From NCBI GenBank assembly GCA_021734395.1, contig JAIPJB010000002.1, positions 124,001 to 188,000 on the forward strand: a DNA stretch of 64,000 nt. Direction: 5' to 3'. Shown piece by piece: positions 2,780-16,052 of this stretch (position 1 is the first letter of the stretch; each line of letters begins with the position of its first letter). The translations under genes and the position numbers were made by a program. Under the pieces are notes generated by a model, which saw nothing but the letters and a program-made list of their open reading frames with translations, was not told the DNA's origin and ran no database searches. Source of the DNA: Candidatus Altimarinota bacterium. GTDB lineage: Bacteria; Patescibacteriota; Gracilibacteria; UBA4473.

Positions 2780-5650
2780 TTACACAATCTTCTGCAGAAA
2801 TTGACCGGTATAGCTCTTTTTGTTTTTTGCGACTTCCTCCGGAGTTCCTGTAGCGATAATTTCACCGCCTTTGTGTCCTCCTTCAGGCCCTAAATCAATG
2901 AGATGATCACAAGATTTTATGACATCCAGATTGTGCTCGATGATAATGACTGAGTTGCCTTTATCGACTAGTTTTTGAAGCACATTTAAGAGTTTTTTGA
3001 CATCACTGAAATGCAATCCCGTTGTCGGTTCATCCAAAACATAAATGGTATTTCCGGTGGCTTTTTTCATCAGCTCTGTTGCTAATTTTACTCGCTGGGC
3101 TTCTCCCCCTGAGAGCGTTGTCGCACTTTGTCCTAATCGAATATATCCCAATCCTACCTCTTCGATAGCCTGTAGTTTTTCCTGTATTTGAGGGAAGTTT
3201 TCAAAAAAACCAACCGCTTCTTCTACTGTCATATCCAAAACATCGGCAATACTTTTTCCTCGATACGTAATTTCGAGTGTTTCTTCGTTATATCGTTTTC
3301 CCTGACAGACTTCGCACGGCACATATACGTCTGGCAAAAAATGCATTTCAATTTTTTTGATCCCATCTCCCGAACACGCTTCACATCGACCTCCTTTTAC
3401 ATTAAAACTAAACCTTCCTGCCGAATATCCCCGCACTCGGGCTTCCGGAATACTCACAAAAACATCCCGAACATCAGTAAAAACTCCTGTATATGTTGCT
3501 GGATTAGAACGAGGGGTTCGTCCAATAGGTGTCTGATCAATCGAGATAAGCTTGTCCAATTGTTCTATTCCTGAAATCTCATCGTATTTCCCCGATGATT
3601 TTTTGGCGCGATTCAATTCTCTTGCCAAAGTTGGAACGAGAATCCGATTGATCAAAGATGATTTTCCTGAGCCAGATACCCCAGTCACACCTACCAAAAC
3701 TCCTAAAGGCAGAGAAACCGTGAGATTTTTGAGGTTATTTTCTCGAGCACCAGTAATCACTAATTCTCCGATGGATCGGCGGCGAATATGAGGAATTTCT
3801 ATTTTCTGACGACCAAAAAGAAAATCTGCTGTTTCTGATGAAACCGATTCCATTTGCTTCAGTGATCCAGAATAGACAAGCTCTCCTCCATGCAATCCGG
3901 AACGAGGGCCAATCTCAATAATGTGATCTGCCGACCTCATTGTATCTTCATCGTGTTCTACCACAATAACCGTATTGCCCAGATCGCGAAGACGCTTGAG
4001 TGTATGAATCAAGCGATCATTATCACGTTGATGGAGTCCGATAGAAGGTTCATCCAAAACATACAAAACTCCCTGAAGCTGTGATCCAATCTGAGTTGCC
4101 AATCGGATTCGCTGAGCTTCTCCTCCTGACAATGTATTTGCCGCACGAGAAAGACTTAAATATCCCAGCCCCACATCTTCCAAAAAAGTGAGTCGATCCT
4201 GAAGTTCTTTCTGTATCGGTTTTATAATTTTTTCCGTTTCCCGACTAATGGGCAGATTTGTAACCCATTCACGAACTTCCGGAACCGCTAAACGACTGAC
4301 ATCAGAAATATTTTTTTCTCCAATAAAAACATTCCTGCCATAAATGCTGAGACGTGCTCCTTCACAAGCCGTACAGGTCGTCTCTACCATGAATTCATTG
4401 AGCTTTCGACGCACAAAATCCGAATCCGATTCATTGTATCGTTTCTCTGTTTGAGCAATAAGACCTTCAAATCTTGCTTTCGTGGTTCTTCCCTGAAAAG
4501 GTCCCCTCAGAGAAACGGTAAATTCTTCATCTCCAAATCCATGGAAAAGTTTTTCCAAAATATTTGATTGTATTTTTTCAATTGGTTTATCAATAGAAAA
4601 TCCATATTTCTCACCAATAGCTGTCAACAAAGAAAAATACCAATTCTGAGCATTCGTTCCCAAGCTCGACCACGGAAGAATTCCCCCTTCTCGAATAGAA
4701 AGGTTTGGATTGAGAGAGCTTTCTTGGTCTAATTCTAATCGGTATCCAAGACCATGACAATCTCCACAGGCTCCATGGGGAGAATTAAAGGAAAACAATC
4801 GTGGTTCAATTGGAGGAAAAGAAAAACCAGTTTCGGGATCGGAAAGATATTCTGAAAAAAGGAAATCTTGTTCATCACTCATCCGATGAACAATAAGAAT
4901 TCCTTCGCCAAACTTGAGAGCAGTTTCTATTGAATCCAACACTCGAAGGCGATCATCATTCTTTTTTTCTACCTTTTCTTGGGAATCTTTCAATTCCACG
5001 TATTTCTTGTTGTAGTCTGTTTTTACCAAACGATCGATAACAATTTCGATATTGTGCTTTTTGTTGGGATCCAATTCTATATCTTCATTAATCGTCGTAA
5101 TATGACCATCAATACGCATTCTCACAAATCCAGCTTTTTGTATTTTTGCAAAAATATTTTTATGTTCTCCCTTTTTGCCCCGTATCAAGGGAGCAAGAAT
5201 CAGAAACTTTTCCCCTTCTTTCCATTCATTCAGAGTATTTAAAATCTGTCCAGGAGTTTGTTTTTTGAGTGGACGCCCATTTTCAGGGTTAATAGGAGTT
5301 CCTGTTTTGGAATAAAGAAGTCGGAGATAATCATACATTTCGGTAACCGTTCCGACCGTCGATCGAGGGTTTCGAGGAGCAGATTTTTGATCGATTGAAA
5401 TAGCAGGAGAAAGTCCTTCAATGGAATCTACTTCCGCTTTTTCTTGCATCTGTAAAAACTGACGCGCATAGGTTGACAGGCTTTCGACATACCGCCTTTG
5501 ACCTTCCGCATAAATCGTATCAAATGCCAGAGATGATTTTCCCGAACCCGACACTCCAGTAACAACGGTCAATTTATCACGTGGGATCTCCACATTTATA
5601 TTTTTCAGATTGTGCATCCGGGCTCCACGAACGATAATATTTTGAGTCAT
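2780..5650 (-). CDS. uvrA: UvrABC excinuclease subunit A
   Basis: DNA damage sensor of nucleotide excision repair; loads UvrB onto lesions. 956 residues from the ATG at 5650. Two ABC ATPase modules are visible, each with Walker [11 protein letters not shown] and signature LSGGEAQR, plus CxxC pairs for zinc (CGDC, CTAC, CEAC and CEVC). The frame stays open to 5728, but the start is set at 5650 because a promoter on this strand (TTGACA at 5723-5728, 17-base spacer, TACACT at 5700-5705) lies inside that extension, and UvrA homology begins at [15 protein letters not shown]. uvrB is in this window at 27987, not in an operon with it. Confidence 0.98.
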
Positions 5651-5699
5651 ACAAAAAGAGGGAAAAATAAAAAAGCCACGGCCACGCCGCGACCTGCGA

Positions 5700-5728
5700 A
5701 GTGTAGCGATCTCCTTGCTTTTTGTCAA
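5700..5728 (-). promoter_or_regulatory. Promoter of uvrA
   Basis: On the minus strand TTGACA (5723-5728), a 17-base spacer and TACACT (5700-5705). Transcription should begin near 5693, leaving a leader of about 43 bases before the uvrA ATG at 5650. It overlaps the divergent promoter of the next gene. Confidence 0.75.
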
Positions 5729-5743
5729 TTCTTTTGGTATAAT
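5714..5743 (+). promoter_or_regulatory. Extended -10 promoter of the small gene at 5766
   Basis: TATAAT at 5738-5743 is preceded by TGG, giving the extended -10 TGGTATAAT. A weak -35, TTGCTT at 5714-5719, stands 18 bases upstream. The start of transcription near 5750 rules out the upstream in-frame start codons (5715 and 5742) for the gene that follows. Confidence 0.75.
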
Positions 5744-5765
5744 GAAGAGATTCTATCACTTCAAA

Positions 5766-6131
5766 ATGTCTTCTTCTCCCGAAAACACTCCTCACTGGAA
5801 AACATCCAAAGAAAATCTCAATACCTATCTCGAAAACCATGAGCAGAGGGAGAAGGCAGTAGACAATATTCTCAATAGAAATGAAAAACTTCGGGCCCTG
5901 CGCCAAGAAGAAAATTCCGAAAAGAAAGCTTCTCGAGCAGAAGAAATGCTTACTCACAGCCTCGAAAATGCCTTTGAAGGAGAAAAATCTAAACAATACG
6001 ATGTCCAAGATATATCAAATGCCGAGAAACTCCTCGATACTATCAGTAAAAAAATAGGTATGACCCCTGATTCTCTGCAAAATCAAATGGAAAGTTTTGA
6101 AGCTTGGGATGAAAGCATCGGCCCTGCTTAG
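5766..6131 (+). CDS. Hypothetical charged helical protein
   Basis: 121 residues beginning MSSSPENTPHW. Soluble, strongly charged and probably a long helix or coiled coil through the glutamate/lysine/arginine-rich middle (about 20-85). No known domain recognised. The ATG at 5766 is preferred over 5715 and 5742 because the TATAAT box covers 5738-5743; the leader would be about 15 bases without a clear Shine-Dalgarno. The 3' end overlaps the stop of the convergent glycosyltransferase gene by 4 bases. Confidence 0.6.
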   Translation: MSSSPENTPHWKTSKENLNTYLENHEQREKAVDNILNRNEKLRALRQEENSEKKASRAEEMLTHSLENAFEGEKSKQYDVQDISNAEKLLDTISKKIGMTPDSLQNQMESFEAWDESIGPA

Positions 6132-7273
6132 TGAGTCTGAAGAATCGTATCAAAAAGTCGTTTTTTGGTCTCCTCCAGATCAAAATTTTTCTCCACAAAA
6201 GACCGAGCGTGTTGAGTAAAAATGCGAGCTTCTTCGGGATGATCAGCAAAAAACCCAATTTTTTCCGCTAAACTCATAGCATTCTGTTTTTCTACGAGAA
6301 GGGAAATACCAGGCACCGAACGCAGGGTGCTTTCGAAATTCCGAAGGATCTCTCGCGGTCCTGTTTCATTAAAGGAGAGCACTAATTTTCCCAAAGCCAA
6401 TGACTCGATAACAACGCGTCCAAAGGTTTCGGGCTCCGTCGGAAGGAAAAGAACGCAATCTGCTTTCTGGATAACCTCAAAAGGATTTTTCACTTCTCCC
6501 TGTATCTCGATATTCTGTAATTTTCGATCTCGAATAAACTGATGTAATTTCTTTTCATAGTAGACCGTTCGAGCATCCTGGGGAAAACTGCTCCCGACAA
6601 TGTGAAAATGAATTTCTGGATTTCGTTCTTGGAGAAGGTCGGCGGCTTCTGCGGCAAAAAGTTGTCCTTTTCGGGGATCAATTCTTCCCAGAACCAAAAT
6701 ATTTTTTATGTTTCGGGGAGGATTCGCTTCCGGAATCCGAGAAAAATCGATTCCATTTTCGATAATACGAATTTTCTTATGATGTGATGTATGCCGACGC
6801 AAATATTCACGACAAGGCATGCTATTGGCAATAAGAACGTCCGCTTTCCCCGCAATACGACGCAATAAAAATCGTGGCACAGTAAAATCATGAACCATGA
6901 CGATCCATTTTCCGGAAAGAAAGAAAAAATATTTTGCCAACAATAGAACGAAATGTGTTCTGGGGGTATTCGAAAAAAAAGTTGTTGCGTTCTGGGACTG
7001 AGCTAGTTTTTTTAATTTCCAGGCAGAATGGAAAAGACAGAAAATCGCTTTTATTTTTTTCAAAAAACCTCCTCGTACCGAAGGAAAATCAAAATATTCA
7101 ATCTCAACAGCCCCAGGAAGTGATTTTTTATAAGCGTCTGCATGCGCCCCCACAACAACCGGTGACAAACGTCGAATTTCTGTCGGTTGAAGTGTCTGAA
7201 AAAAATCCAGCAAAAATCGTTCTGCCCCTCCTAATGTTTCGGCTTGTTCCAGAAAAAATGTTTTTCCTTTCAT
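6128..7273 (-). CDS. GT4-type glycosyltransferase (GT-B fold)
   Basis: 381 residues. Transfers a sugar from a nucleotide donor, probably to a lipid- or envelope-linked acceptor at the inner face of the membrane. The N-terminal acceptor domain has an EQAETLGGAERFL loop; the C-terminal donor domain contains LVLGRIDPRKGQ and the family's E-x7-E motif in EPETFGRVVIESLALG. Its ATG overlaps the comEC stop by 4 bases (ATGA type), so the two are translated together. It is the last gene of the operon read from 12272. The sugar and acceptor cannot be told from sequence. Confidence 0.9.
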   Translation of the reverse strand: MKGKTFFLEQAETLGGAERFLLDFFQTLQPTEIRRLSPVVVGAHADAYKKSLPGAVEIEYFDFPSVRGGFLKKIKAIFCLFHSAWKLKKLAQSQNATTFFSNTPRTHFVLLLAKYFFFLSGKWIVMVHDFTVPRFLLRRIAGKADVLIANSMPCREYLRRHTSHHKKIRIIENGIDFSRIPEANPPRNIKNILVLGRIDPRKGQLFAAEAADLLQERNPEIHFHIVGSSFPQDARTVYYEKKLHQFIRDRKLQNIEIQGEVKNPFEVIQKADCVLFLPTEPETFGRVVIESLALGKLVLSFNETGPREILRNFESTLRSVPGISLLVEKQNAMSLAEKIGFFADHPEEARIFTQHARSFVEKNFDLEETKKRLFDTILQTH

Positions 7274-8763
7274 GCAGAAAGATTGTTGTTTTTTTCTCCT
7301 GCAAAATCAAGAATTCTCGAGGAACGAAGGAAAAGTTGAAAAAAACGACGCGAAAAAAATCCCCACAGAAAAAAGAGAAGAAGGAGAAAAAGGCTCCCCT
7401 GATAAACCCACACAGGAAATTCCAGAGGAGGGATTTTTCCAAAAAGATGAGCCAGATGAAGCAAAACCTCAAGAAGAACGAAAGCAGGGACACTCAATAT
7501 TTCTGCGGGTATTTGGGGAAGAAAGCCAAATATTCCGCTCAAAAAAGAAAAAAACATTCCCAAAGGAACAAGCGGTTCAGCAAAAATATTGGCTAAAAGC
7601 CCTGCCCCAGGAAAAGATCCAAAAGAAAATCCCAAAATGGGAAATACCGCAATTTGGGCAGCGAGTGTTACTGATAAAAGAGTGCGAAACTCATATCGGT
7701 CAGGAACAAAAAAAAGATATTTTTCAAGAACGGGTGCTCCTAAAACAATTCCAACTGTCGCAAAAGAACTCAAAAAGAAACTGACATCTTTTTGTACAAG
7801 GAGTGGATTTTGCAAGCCCAAAAGGACGAAGGACAGCAGAATGATATTTCGTGCGTCTGAAAATCGTCCCAGAACCGAAGCCCAGGAAACCAAAATTCCC
7901 ATAAAAGCCGCCCGAAGGATTGGTGGTTCTACTCCCGTCATAGCAACAAAAAAAAGAAGCGCCATCGCACTTCCCAAAAAAACCATGCGACGACCGAATC
8001 TCCTGAGAAGAAAAGCCACCAAAATAATAACAATCGTGACATTAAATCCTGAAACAACAAGAAGGTGCTGTAAACCTGATCGACGAAAATCTTCCTGTAC
8101 AGCATCAGGAAGCTCGTGTTTTATCCCCAAAAGTATTCCAACACCGATAGAACGATGAGGGGCGGGCAGTGTTTTTTGAATATTGTGAGAAAACCAAGAT
8201 CGCACTTTTTGTGCGGCTCTCAATAAAAAACTTCCCTCTCCCCGATCAATAACACGAAATGTTTCGGGAAAGCGGATGAGACGGAAAGTTCCGTATCGAG
8301 CCAAATATGCACGATAGTCAAAATCGTTTGTGTTTCGAGGAAGAGAGAAATCTCCTTTCCCTTGTATTATGTCTCCATACCGAAGAGATACTGGCGAATC
8401 ATAAATGAAAAGAACTTTTTCTCCCGTGGATTTTAATTTTAAAAACACCCGGTTGTTTTCTTGTCGTATATCCGGAAAGCTCACCACCATTCCTTGAAAA
8501 AATTGAGATTCTTCACGAATAGGTGTGATGGAAGGCTGTGAGAGAGAAACTCTGTACTGTGCATATCCCAAAGACAGAAAAAAAGCCGCCAAAACTCCAA
8601 AAAGAAATTGTTTCCATATCCCCGTCAAAAACAAGAAAACTGTCCCCGCTAGGAGAAAAGGAATGTCAGAGAAAATAAATTGTGCCCCCCAAAGACCAGC
8701 AAAAAGAGAGACCAGAAGAAATCGCAATTTTTCTGAAGACCTAAGCTGACCAAGAGATATCAT
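7270..8763 (-). CDS. comEC: ComEC/Rec2 family competence channel protein, short form
   Basis: Inner-membrane channel for single-stranded DNA uptake. 497 residues: N-terminal membrane helices, a soluble OB-like domain (about 85-165, with the LRYGDIIQGKGDF and FDYRAYLARYGTF blocks), then the multi-helix competence domain with HLLVVSGFNVTIV, the family's HLLaiSGlHv motif. It ends after the membrane core, so the C-terminal metallo-beta-lactamase nuclease-like domain of the about 770-residue Bacillus protein is absent. It lies between the LysM/M23 peptidase (21 bases upstream) and the glycosyltransferase (4-base overlap). No other competence genes are in the window. The role in DNA uptake is inferred from the family. 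Confidence 0.93.
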   Translation of the reverse strand: MISLGQLRSSEKLRFLLVSLFAGLWGAQFIFSDIPFLLAGTVFLFLTGIWKQFLFGVLAAFFLSLGYAQYRVSLSQPSITPIREESQFFQGMVVSFPDIRQENNRVFLKLKSTGEKVLFIYDSPVSLRYGDIIQGKGDFSLPRNTNDFDYRAYLARYGTFRLIRFPETFRVIDRGEGSFLLRAAQKVRSWFSHNIQKTLPAPHRSIGVGILLGIKHELPDAVQEDFRRSGLQHLLVVSGFNVTIVIILVAFLLRRFGRRMVFLGSAMALLFFVAMTGVEPPILRAAFMGILVSWASVLGRFSDARNIILLSFVLLGLQNPLLVQKDVSFFLSSFATVGIVLGAPVLEKYLFFVPDRYEFRTLLSVTLAAQIAVFPILGFSFGSFPGAGLLANIFAEPLVPLGMFFSFLSGIFGFLPQIPAEILSVPAFVLLEVLLHLAHLFGKIPPLEFPVWVYQGSLFLLLLFFLWGFFSRRFFQLFLRSSRILDFAGEKNNNLSA

Positions 8764-12372: not shown

Positions 12373-14172
12373 ATGAAAGGCGTTATTTTAGCGGGGGGAA
12401 CGGGATCTCGACTATTCCCTAGCACAAAGGTGACCAATAAACATTTATTGCCGATATTTAATCGGCCTATGATTTACTATCCGATCGAAACACTCAAACG
12501 ATCAGGAATTCGAGATATTCTCATTGTTACAGGAGCCGAACACGCGGGTGATTTTATGGCCCTTTTAGGATCGGGATCAGATTTTGGCGTCAATTTTACC
12601 TATCGCATCCAGGATGGCTCCGGTGGCATTGCTCAGGCTTTAGGGTTAGCAGAAGATTTTTCTGCGGGAGAATCCATCGGTGTGATTCTGTCGGATAATA
12701 TTTTTGAGGAAGATTTCTCTGAAGATGTCTATTATTTTGACCACGGCGCGCAAATTTTTGTCAAAGAAGTCGAGGATGCTGCACGATTCGGCGTAGTAGA
12801 AATAGACGAAGACGGAACCGTGAAATCTATTGAAGAAAAACCGGCCATGCCGAAATCAAATCTGGCTCAAACAGGATTTTATCTCTATGACAACCAAGTC
12901 TTTAATTTTATTCGGACATTGGAGCCTTCCAAACGAGGAGAGCTGGAAATCACCGATGTAAATAAAATTTACCTCGAAAAAAAACTACTTCGGGCCGCAG
13001 AAGTAAACGGCATGTGGATTGATGCCGGAACACACGAATCACTTTTAGAAGCGAGTATCTTGGCACAAGAAGCTTTTGATCCAGATCGATTACGCGCTCG
13101 CAGACCCGATCTAGCAAAAGCAAAGTTTACGCGTCATGTCCCCAAAGTAACAGTAGGCGTGATCACTCATAATTCTGAAAAATATATTGAGCCATGTTTG
13201 AATTCTTTGCTCGCTCAGGACTATGATAATCTAGAAATTATTGTACTGGATAGCGCTTCAAGCGATCACAGTATTGATATCCTGGAAGAAAAATTCCCTG
13301 ACATCAAACTCATCGAATCTCAAGAAAATATCGGATTTGCTCGAAGTCACAACGAAATTCTCCGTCAGACACAAGGAGATTTCTATGCCTGTGTCAATGT
13401 CGACATGATTTTTGAGCCTAATTTTATCTCGCAACTCGTAAAATCTATTGATCAAAAGCCTATCTTTGGATCTTCAGGGGGGAAAGTAAAACGATGGGAT
13501 TTTGAAGCTTTTGAAAAAAGCCTCAAAGGCGCTCGTGAAATGGGAAAAACAAATTTTATTGATTCTGCGGGACTTCGGATTTTGCGTTCACATCGATTTG
13601 AAGATATCGGCCAAGGAGAAGTCGATTATGGACAATACGATCACCCAAGACAAATATTTGGGGCTTCGGGAGCTGCTGTTTTGTATCGAAGAAAGGCGCT
13701 TGAAGATGTTGCTTTTCAGAATGAAGACCACGAAAAAGAATATTTCGATGAGTCGATGTTTATGTACAAAGAAGATGTCGACCTAGCCTATCGTCTCCAG
13801 TGGGCCGGATGGAAAGCGCATTATACTCCGTACGCAACCTGTTATCATGATCGAAGTGCCACAGCTTTTGGGCGTAGTACGCTCAGTATTCTCAAAAATA
13901 GAGCCAAGAAACCGAAGCTCATCAATCGATTGTCGTATCTGAATCATCATATTTTGTTAGAGAAAAATTTCTCGGATGAATACTCTGGAAAAATTCGGAG
14001 TGCCACCTTTTGGTATAACTTCAAAGTTTTTCTCTACATTTTGATTTTTGAAACAGAACTTCTGAGTGAGTGGTGGAAATACTTTAAAATGCGCAGTCAG
14101 ATCAAAGCACGAAAACGCGCCATGCCACGTCGCGTGAGCAAAGCAGAGATCGAGAAATTGATGGAAAGCTGA
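12373..14172 (+). CDS. RmlA-like sugar nucleotidyltransferase fused to a GT2 (rhamnosyltransferase-like) domain
   Basis: 599 residues from ATG 12373. Residues 1 to about 240 form a sugar-1-phosphate nucleotidyltransferase: GGTGSRLFPSTK at 8-19, the SDNIF loop at 107-111, EKP at 155-157, TGFYLYD at 167-173 and GMWIDAGT at 213-220, as in dTDP-glucose synthase RmlA. Residues about 257-520 are a GT-A glycosyltransferase beginning VTVGVITHNSEKYI, with a NVDM metal motif near 342-345 and ASGAAVLYRR at 431-440; this style is typical of rhamnosyltransferases. The C-terminus has a hydrophobic stretch and a basic tail. Joining donor synthesis to transfer in one chain is unusual. No rmlB, rmlC or rmlD is seen in the window. 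Confidence 0.88.
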   Translation: MKGVILAGGTGSRLFPSTKVTNKHLLPIFNRPMIYYPIETLKRSGIRDILIVTGAEHAGDFMALLGSGSDFGVNFTYRIQDGSGGIAQALGLAEDFSAGESIGVILSDNIFEEDFSEDVYYFDHGAQIFVKEVEDAARFGVVEIDEDGTVKSIEEKPAMPKSNLAQTGFYLYDNQVFNFIRTLEPSKRGELEITDVNKIYLEKKLLRAAEVNGMWIDAGTHESLLEASILAQEAFDPDRLRARRPDLAKAKFTRHVPKVTVGVITHNSEKYIEPCLNSLLAQDYDNLEIIVLDSASSDHSIDILEEKFPDIKLIESQENIGFARSHNEILRQTQGDFYACVNVDMIFEPNFISQLVKSIDQKPIFGSSGGKVKRWDFEAFEKSLKGAREMGKTNFIDSAGLRILRSHRFEDIGQGEVDYGQYDHPRQIFGASGAAVLYRRKALEDVAFQNEDHEKEYFDESMFMYKEDVDLAYRLQWAGWKAHYTPYATCYHDRSATAFGRSTLSILKNRAKKPKLINRLSYLNHHILLEKNFSDEYSGKIRSATFWYNFKVFLYILIFETELLSEWWKYFKMRSQIKARKRAMPRRVSKAEIEKLMES

Positions 14173-14312: not shown

Positions 14313-14394
14313 TTGTCATGCTGAACTTGTTTCAGCATCTGCCTTCTTTTTCATTGGACTTCTCCGAGATCCTGAAATAAATTCAGGATGACAA
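14313..14394. repeat. 82-bp inverted-repeat element, copy 1
   Basis: Two 28-base arms (14313-14340 and 14367-14394) are inverted copies of each other with a few differences; the left begins TTGTCATGCTGAAC, the right ends TTCAGGATGACAA. Each arm is itself a small hairpin. A second copy of nearly the same length is at 18901-18983. The layout resembles a MITE or paired REP element. The rest of 14173-14402 holds only the short array and AT-rich sequence. Confidence 0.85.
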
Positions 14395-14402
14395 AAAAGA
14401 GC

Positions 14403-16052
14403 ATGAAAAAAGTTTGTGCGTTTTCAGGACAGGAATTCGAGATCACTGAAGCAGATCTGAAGTTTTATGAAAAATTAAATGTTCCGCCGCCCACTTTGTG
14501 TCCGGATGAGCGGATGCGACGGAGATTAGCGTTTCGAAATGAAAGAAATTTGTACAAGAGAGAGTGCGCTCTCTGTGAAAAGTCTGTTATTTCTATTTAT
14601 TCCCCAGAAAAATCTTTTTCTCTTTTATGTCCTGACTGCTGGTGGAGTGATAAATGGGATCCTTTTGAATACGGACGTGATTTTGATTTCAATTGTCCCT
14701 TTTTCGAGCAGTTTTCTGAGCTTTCGGAGGCCATTCCTCATATGGCTGTCAACGTCGTGGGAAATGAAAACTGTGAATACGTGAGCCAAACTGGATATTC
14801 GAAAAATTGTTATTTAGTTTTTAATACAGATTTTTCCGAAGACTGTCTGTATACAACAACAGTTTTGTATTCAAAAGACTGCGTCGATAGTCTCAATCTC
14901 GATCACTGCGAATTATGTTTCGAATGCATCGACAGCTCTCACTGCTATAATTCCCAATTCCTGCAAAATTGTCAGAATTGTTCGGATTCTCTTTTTCTCA
15001 AAAATTGCATTGGCTGTCACCATTGCTTCGGTTCGGTAAATCTGAGAAATAAGGAATATTATTTTTTCAATACGTCCCTTTCTCGACCTGAATGGGAAGA
15101 AAAAATAAAAAATATAAATCTAAATTCTCTTTCAGAGCAACAACAATGGAAACAAAAATTCGAAGAACAAAAATTAGAATTTCCTCATAAATTTGCCGAA
15201 ATAAAAAACTGTGAAAATGTAACCGGAGATTATCTCCGCAATTGTAAAAATACATATCATTGTTTTGATTGCTTTGGAAATGAAGACGTAAAACATTGCG
15301 CAACATTTTTTGATTCTAAAGATTGTCAGGATTATTGCGTTGGAGGATATAATGCTTCTTGGTGCTATGAAATGGCTTCTGGAGGATATAACGTTTTTCG
15401 CTGCGTCTTTTCTTCTCATGTTTGGACAAATGACCAAGATATTTTTTATTCCCTGCAAGGAATTACGAGTTCCAAAGATCTTTTTGGATGTGTTTCCCTT
15501 CGAAATGCACAGTACTGCATTCTCAATAAACAATATTCGAAAGAAGAATATTTCCGCCTCCGTGAAAAAATTGTCGAGCATATGAAAAAAACCGGAGAAT
15601 GGGGTGAATTTTTTCCGATTACACTTTCTCCTTTTGCGTATAACGAAACCGTTGCGCAGGAATACTTCCCTCTCACCAAAAAAGAAGCCCTGTCTCGTGG
15701 GTATCAATGGCGTGACCCCGATGGGAAACAATATCAAGCACAAACATATACCATTCCGGAAAATATTGAACAGGTGTTAGATTCGGTATGTGAACAGTTA
15801 CTCGCTTGTCGTGAATGTGGAAAAAATTACAAAATCCAAAAGGCAGAGCTGAAGTTTTACCGGAAAATGAACATTCCTATTCCTCAAGAATGTCCTGATT
15901 GCCGGCATCATAACCGCATGAAACTCCGTAATCCACGAAAACTCTGGCAGAGAGAATGTGATCAGTGCGGAACGGAAATACAAACAACGTTCGCGCCCGA
16001 TCGACCAGAAGAGGTCTCTTGCGAAAAATGCTATTTAAATTCTATAAATTAA
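14403..16052 (+). CDS. Cysteine-rich zinc-ribbon protein of a family common in CPR genomes
   Basis: 549 residues. An N-terminal block (VCAFSGQEFEITEADLKFYE, then CPDERMRRRLAFRNERNLYKRECALCEK) is mirrored by a C-terminal block (CRECGKNYKIQKAELKFYRK, CPDCRHHNRMKLRNPRKLWQRECDQC), so treble-clef-like zinc ribbons flank the protein. Between them run about ten degenerate units of roughly 18-20 residues with paired cysteines (CEYVSQTGYSKNCYLVF, CLYTTTVLYSKDC), which look like a cysteine-studded solenoid. I know of similar uncharacterised proteins from Patescibacteria; no function is established. An in-frame ATG at 14388 lies inside the inverted-repeat element, so ATG 14403 is preferred. Confidence 0.85.
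   Translation: MKKVCAFSGQEFEITEADLKFYEKLNVPPPTLCPDERMRRRLAFRNERNLYKRECALCEKSVISIYSPEKSFSLLCPDCWWSDKWDPFEYGRDFDFNCPFFEQFSELSEAIPHMAVNVVGNENCEYVSQTGYSKNCYLVFNTDFSEDCLYTTTVLYSKDCVDSLNLDHCELCFECIDSSHCYNSQFLQNCQNCSDSLFLKNCIGCHHCFGSVNLRNKEYYFFNTSLSRPEWEEKIKNINLNSLSEQQQWKQKFEEQKLEFPHKFAEIKNCENVTGDYLRNCKNTYHCFDCFGNEDVKHCATFFDSKDCQDYCVGGYNASWCYEMASGGYNVFRCVFSSHVWTNDQDIFYSLQGITSSKDLFGCVSLRNAQYCILNKQYSKEEYFRLREKIVEHMKKTGEWGEFFPITLSPFAYNETVAQEYFPLTKKEALSRGYQWRDPDGKQYQAQTYTIPENIEQVLDSVCEQLLACRECGKNYKIQKAELKFYRKMNIPIPQECPDCRHHNRMKLRNPRKLWQRECDQCGTEIQTTFAPDRPEEVSCEKCYLNSIN

Follow-up and report, generated by a model that had tools for sequence, protein, structure and literature searches.

What sugar does a glycosyltransferase use when it is made as one protein with an enzyme that activates glucose? 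The question is raised by a gene in a 64,000-nucleotide stretch of DNA from a Candidatus Altimarinota bacterium of the Gracilibacteria (hereafter the window), which encodes an RmlA-type nucleotidyltransferase followed by a family-2 glycosyltransferase (GT2). The initial annotation took the product to be a nucleotide-sugar synthase fused to the very transferase that would use what it makes. As described below, the fusion is genuine and conserved, but use by the GT2 half of the RmlA half's own product fits poorly with the rmlD genes that neighbour its relatives and with its co-occurrence with RmlB. Comparison of sequences and gene order leads us to favour, with reasonable though not high confidence, a protein that would unite the dTDP-glucose entry enzyme with a dTDP-6-deoxyhexose transferase, the middle enzymes of the route being separate, and that would derive from an rmlD–rmlA–GT2 operon.

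An RmlA-type domain and a GT2 domain in one reading frame

Translation of the gene gave a single frame of 599 codons, in which TGA, at the end, was the sole stop. Pfam profiles placed PF00483 (NTP_transferase) on residues 2–228 (E 6.5e-57; 193.3 bits against a curated cut-off of 21.2) and PF00535 (Glycos_transf_2) on residues 260–363 (E 5.1e-25; 88.8 bits against a cut-off of 23.3), with PF13641 spanning residues 257–497 (E 2.2e-17), which confirmed the annotated order of RmlA then GT2 within one open reading frame. Both residue sets were intact: the residue table returned the full catalytic-type set for the RmlA half and every GT-A type position for the GT2 half (Table 1). We take the aligned residues of the RmlA half to have the catalytic roles seen in RmlA structures, and D293, N342-x-D344 and E467–D468 of the GT2 half presumably have GT-A type roles.

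Table 1 Position of the fused gene and its parts in the window, and of dTDP-sugar pathway genes elsewhere in the source genome.
Feature	Position	Strand	Basis
Fused RmlA–GT2 gene	12373..14172	+	599 aa + TGA stop; full-length homologues in 15/19 family relatives
N-terminal RmlA-type glucose-1-phosphate thymidylyltransferase, short form, residues 1–235	12373..13077	+	PF00483; best solved relative 3hl3/4ecm; G8, G9, G11, R13, K23, D108, E155, K156, D217
Linker, residues 236–255, without separate domain	13078..13137	+	Domain borders; model low-confidence at 246–254
C-terminal family-2 (GT-A type) glycosyltransferase, residues 256–599	13138..14169	+	PF00535/PF13641; invariant columns; D293, N342-x-D344, E467–D468
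C-terminal helices, residues 539–582	13987..14118	+	Predicted helices 539–559 and 561–582; rich in aromatic/basic residues
RmlB	C6:212081-213037		467.7 bits, above cut-off
RmlD-like protein	C6:174798-175607		202.1 bits against curated RmlD cut-off 224.05; PF04321 229.6 bits
FdtA-like cupin	C1:213429-213812 (L107:5424-5822)	− (L107)	PF05523 117.8 bits against 23; matches FdtA at E 1.7e-24; QdtA also matched
Wzm/Wzt-like export cluster on C1	L107:5856-10519	− (L107)	GT4, ABC-2 permease, ABC ATPase, GT2/GT4 double protein; FdtA-like cupin ends the run

The residues of the RmlA half aligned to solved RmlA chains, with 3hl3 the best match (E 2e-78, phmmer); searching structures with the protein's predicted model returned 4ecm at 55% identity over 236 columns. 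All 50 of the 50 rows listed in the fold search with this model were RmlA-type chains, a result uninformative on the GT2 half. The curated NCBIfam model TIGR01207 gave the RmlA half 252.2 bits against a cut-off of 360.65, with profile positions 1–235 of 286 matched, so the first half is named RmlA-type by homology and not as a TIGR01207 equivalog. The source genome has no close RmlA besides the fused copy, its next best matches having 31% and 28% identity. Solved GT2 enzymes matched about 100 residues of the second half at most (E 5.7e-11 or weaker), so that donor and acceptor are unreadable from them. The predicted model was moderate in quality (mean pLDDT 69, pTM 0.43, 17 sequences) and we therefore made no use of the mutual placement of the RmlA and GT2 domains; the predicted helices near the C-terminus could possibly form a membrane-docking tail.

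The fusion is conserved in its own family and rare elsewhere

We searched 99 genomes, comprising the source genome (G000) and 98 relatives, with 20 in the source's own family. A full-length fused frame without internal stops was present in 16 of these 20 (the source and 15 of its 19 relatives), and the 15 relatives shared 49–84% identity with the window protein over residues 1 to 598–599. Of the four exceptions, G014 carries its GT2 as an unfused gene; the others, G005, G008 and G018 (70–74% complete), gave no match at 1e-20. A search of named genomes returned 31 loci, of which 16 were fused, one was adjacent but split (L057) and 14 were one-domain or two-gene matches. Among the fused loci were those of the own-family type (L037 to L044 and L046) and seven from outside the class, here called Falkow-type, in Falkowbacteria (L045 and L049), Magasanikbacteria (L051) and genomes labelled bacterium or Patescibacteria (L047, L048, L050 and L055).

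A hidden frameshift, the first objection that the initial annotation had raised, and an assembly artefact are both excluded, since the frame is open in 16 of the family's 20 genomes as well as in the seven Falkow-type loci. The second objection, that homologues might always be split, is contradicted within the family, where an unfused GT2 occurs in 1 of 20 (G014). The fusion is real and is conserved in its own family. Outside that family the RmlA and GT2 halves are mostly separate and the fusion is rare across the phylum, where a match at E <= 1e-95 was found in 3 of 379 genomes, all from the own family and the source genome included. Both enzymes are already known, and the novelty is in their combination; keyword searches of an open literature library turned up no description of an RmlA–GT2 fusion.

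In the 13 family relatives with intact fused RmlA residues, the RmlA half was closer to the window protein (71–89% identity) than the GT half (57–80%), which indicates that the RmlA half is under constraint. A further fused RmlA–GT2-like frame, in G042 (L025:1456-3102), has a GT2 half without the E-D and N-x-D motifs and was set apart; the same genome has an additional separate GT2 (L132). In three genomes from other families of the class (G030, G039 and G077; families f10 and f12), rmlA- and rmlB-type matches carried 3 to 22 in-frame TGA codons per gene, compared with zero in the fused genes of family f1, to which the window belongs, so TGA recoding varies within the class.

Operon neighbours and a probable origin of the fusion

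In G020, from another family of the same class, rmlD, rmlA and GT2 genes are consecutive on one strand, and the rmlA and GT2 genes overlap. The order is repeated at L057, where rmlD (5124-5990) is followed by rmlA (6001-6726) and, after a gap of 4 bases, by GT2 (6731-7660); unfused adjacent rmlA and GT2 genes were also seen in G059, G066, G079, G033 and G084. Directly upstream of the fused gene, rmlD is found in five of the seven Falkow-type loci (L045, L047, L049, L050 and L055), the remaining two being L048, with a different upstream gene, and L051, which starts at a contig end. L055 also encodes an RmlC–RmlB fusion (L055:2877-4574). The fused gene most likely arose by loss of the stop between the rmlA and GT2 genes of an rmlD–rmlA–GT2 operon.

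Trees were built on 66 and 55 rows, after removal of 27 loci (same-place copies, truncated or split frames, the own paralogues L002, L003 and L104, plus L066), with which the rmlA of G051 was dropped entirely, and of separate GT2 rows below 28% identity. With L022 and L025 left out, all 22 fused rows grouped together in the RmlA tree (support 38/17), and a single grouping of the fused rows was not rejected for the GT2 tree (p-AU 0.396). The own-family and Falkow-type fusions may go back to one shared event or to separate ones.

Such a stop loss between two co-translated genes might have been neutral, bringing no functional gain while both halves went on working. We think this unlikely: although unfused neighbours in the same order exist, as listed above, and other enzymes of the pathway have also become joined (RmlC–RmlB in L055, and RmlD–RmlA in L054:740-2494 and L061:5155-6744, one of the two labelled archaeon), 16 of 20 family genomes have stayed fused while the GT half diverged to 57% identity, with G014 the one clear unfused case, and in G006 and G013 the chain is still fused and open despite the loss of RmlA catalytic-type residues.

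An FdtA-like cupin occupies the slot of RmlC

The initial annotation was right that RmlB, RmlC and RmlD are not in the window. The wider search for rmlBCD that it proposed recovered two of the three, RmlB and an RmlD-like reductase, both on another contig (Table 1); RmlC was not found anywhere in the genome, which is 81% complete, and there is an FdtA-like cupin instead. The fused gene adjoins none of the rmlB, rmlD-like and FdtA-like genes in the source genome. RmlC was found in 0 of 20 family genomes by TIGR01221 at 1e-10 and in 0 of 20 above the PF00908 cut-off; weak PF00908 matches below that cut-off were present in G005, G007 and G012, in the first two where the FdtA-like gene lies. By contrast, a PF05523 FdtA-like cupin was present in 18 of the 20. 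The source-genome cupin keeps the motifs HAH and WHE, equivalents of FdtA His49, His51 and His95, which are described as active-site histidines (PMC2943079). Three other FdtA-like cupins (L070, L074 and L079), which come from families f4 and f18 and are encoded in the same gene runs as rmlB, are without the His51 and His95 equivalents, a sequence difference suggesting that they may catalyse a changed reaction.

Ignoring kinship, the 48 RmlD-positive genomes among the 99 divided into 13 with RmlC only, 31 with the FdtA-like cupin only, one with both and three with neither; and among 58 RmlB-positive, RmlC-negative genomes, again with kinship ignored, RmlD was present in 30 of 32 with the FdtA-like cupin compared with 2 of 26 without it. 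These counts indicate that the FdtA-like cupin occupies the slot of RmlC. It is possibly a class-wide replacement for RmlC, or the sign of a different 6-deoxy sugar.

FdtA usually supplies an aminotransferase. No DegT-type sugar aminotransferase was found in the source genome at 1e-10, and 8 of the 13 family genomes searched have weak DegT-type matches alone (41–53 bits). Given an FdtA-like cupin and no DegT-type aminotransferase found, the product of the pathway would be either L-rhamnose, if the cupin has taken on the epimerising step, or a different 6-deoxyhexose that has been reduced at C3. FdtA itself belongs to Fuc3NAc synthesis (PMC2943079). RmlD of the classical pathway is described as reducing the double-epimerised substrate only (PMC9095892), so a product other than rhamnose would call for a reductase with another specificity.

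The donor of the GT2 half

Homologues of the GT2 half were present in 50 of 71 RmlB-positive genomes compared with 4 of 28 RmlB-negative ones (Fisher p 4e-7, kinship ignored), and the difference held outside the own family (34 of 53 compared with 3 of 26; p 9e-6, kinship ignored). They were likewise found in 38 of 48 RmlD-positive and 16 of 51 RmlD-negative genomes, a count that also ignores kinship. The co-occurrence with RmlB, the rmlD neighbourhoods and the RmlC–RmlB fusion of L055 point to a 6-deoxyhexose donor from later steps, and what the GT2 half uses is probably a sugar made further along the route and not the RmlA half's own product. A role as a dTDP-rhamnosyltransferase is suggested by gene neighbourhood and co-occurrence. 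The main weakness of a 6-deoxyhexose donor is that 16 of the 54 genomes with this GT2 type, the family members G006 and G013 among them, were without RmlD at E 1e-30, so that the transferase persists there without a detected reductase, which speaks against a strict need for an RmlD product. Also counting against the favoured reading are the 4 of the 54 that were without RmlB at the threshold used, the separation of the fused gene from rmlB, the rmlD-like gene and the FdtA-like gene in the source genome, and the scores of the RmlD-like protein and the RmlA half below their curated cut-offs.

The same 16 genomes lend something to direct channelling, in which the GT2 half would take dTDP-glucose straight from the RmlA half, as do the short linker that joins both halves in one chain and the intact GT2 halves that G006 and G013 keep without detected FdtA-like or RmlD genes. 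We nevertheless judge channelling quite unlikely, because this GT2 type co-occurs with RmlB, itself a consumer of dTDP-glucose, and because unfused relatives and Falkow-type fusions alike adjoin rmlD, L055 having the RmlC–RmlB fusion as well. To our knowledge, few bacterial transferases use dTDP-glucose, which we also counted against it.

Two relatives with decayed RmlA halves

The RmlA residues were intact in 14 of the 16 fused family members. The fused RmlA half of G006 (L021) no longer has R13, and that of G013 (L022/L046) has lost the glycine-loop residues, K23, D108 and D217; the GT2 residues are intact in both. G013 shares 39% identity with the window protein in the first half and 58% in the second, the opposite order to that of other family members. 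Each of the two genomes also encodes, next to rmlB, a separate rmlA that is intact, and in both FdtA-like and RmlD genes were absent at the thresholds used. Because the chain remains fused, the decayed half may act as a platform, or may merely not yet have been removed. That the RmlA half of the family serves the transferase chiefly as a platform, structural or regulatory, with catalysis secondary, would suit these two genomes, where catalytic-type losses sit beside a separate intact rmlA while the GT half and the chain are kept, but is highly improbable given the intact RmlA residues of the other 14 and a source genome whose fused copy is its only close RmlA.

Genomic setting and a proposed division of labour

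The run of genes on C1 that the FdtA-like cupin ends (Table 1) resembles a glycan export locus of the Wzm/Wzt type, which makes a lipid-linked surface glycan the probable acceptor. Directly downstream of the fused gene, the window encodes a cysteine-rich protein of 554 aa (14388-16052, + strand) with no Pfam match at 1e-5; a second cysteine-rich protein, of 551 aa and also with no Pfam match at 1e-5 (L103:2546-4201, − strand), resembles it in layout by eye.

In the mechanism that we favour, entry to and exit from the pathway would be held in one protein. The first half would convert dTTP and glucose-1-phosphate to dTDP-glucose and so begin dTDP-6-deoxyhexose synthesis; separate proteins encoded elsewhere, RmlB, then the FdtA-type cupin, then the RmlD-like reductase, would carry out the middle steps; and the second half would add the finished dTDP-6-deoxyhexose to a cell-surface glycan as it grows, probably on the inner side of the membrane. 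If RmlB, cupin and reductase do act between them, the two halves are unlikely to pass a sugar straight from one to the other. Fusion would instead couple entry with exit in equal amounts and a shared location, and the end product would be consumed beside the enzyme that such products often inhibit. We infer the activities of both halves, the donor, the acceptor and any kinetic benefit; the gain from fusion might lie in the shared location, in the fixed ratio or in less inhibition by the end product.

A more specific version is possible, and we offer it tentatively. With the entry and exit enzymes in one chain and the middle ones acting in trans, the FdtA-type cupin and RmlD-like reductase would replace the RmlC/RmlD chemistry; the donor sugar would then not be L-rhamnose but a different 6-deoxyhexose, such as that of dTDP-D-fucose or of the corresponding C3 epimer; and in two relatives the entry half, without its catalytic residues, would have become a platform for the transferase.

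If the first and last enzymes of the pathway are indeed fused, the protein would be a simple test case for the linking of non-adjacent steps, whether through location, ratio or relief of inhibition. These very small bacteria may not follow the textbook L-rhamnose route, though dTDP-L-rhamnose synthesis has been reported as conserved in Gracilibacteria (PMC9166423).

Comparison with known systems

Over residues 1–233 the window protein has the fold and catalytic-type residues of short-form RmlA (RfbA; PDB 3hl3/4ecm), with 55% identity in structural alignment, and differs from it by the C-terminal GT2 domain and by a score below the TIGR01207 cut-off. It has the common GT-A residues of family-2 glycosyltransferases (PF00535/PF13641), but with a complete RmlA domain in front. 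With the RmlABCD pathway to dTDP-L-rhamnose the source genome shares RmlA, RmlB and an RmlD-like protein that scores below the curated RmlD cut-off, whereas in its family RmlC was not found (0/20) and an FdtA-like cupin is present in 18/20. The FdtA pathway to dTDP-Fuc3N(Ac) (PMC2943079) has in common RmlA, RmlB and a cupin with the three histidine equivalents; the source genome differs in having no DegT-type aminotransferase at E 1e-10 and an RmlD-like reductase instead. A natural fusion of a cytidylyltransferase with the enzyme that uses its CDP-inositol is described for IPCT/DIPPS (PMC8397731). There too a nucleotidyltransferase is joined to a downstream transferase, and the NCBIfam model of IPCT/DIPPS matches residues 1–228 of the window protein; but its second domain uses the product of the first directly, whereas in the RmlA–GT2 protein several steps probably lie between the two.
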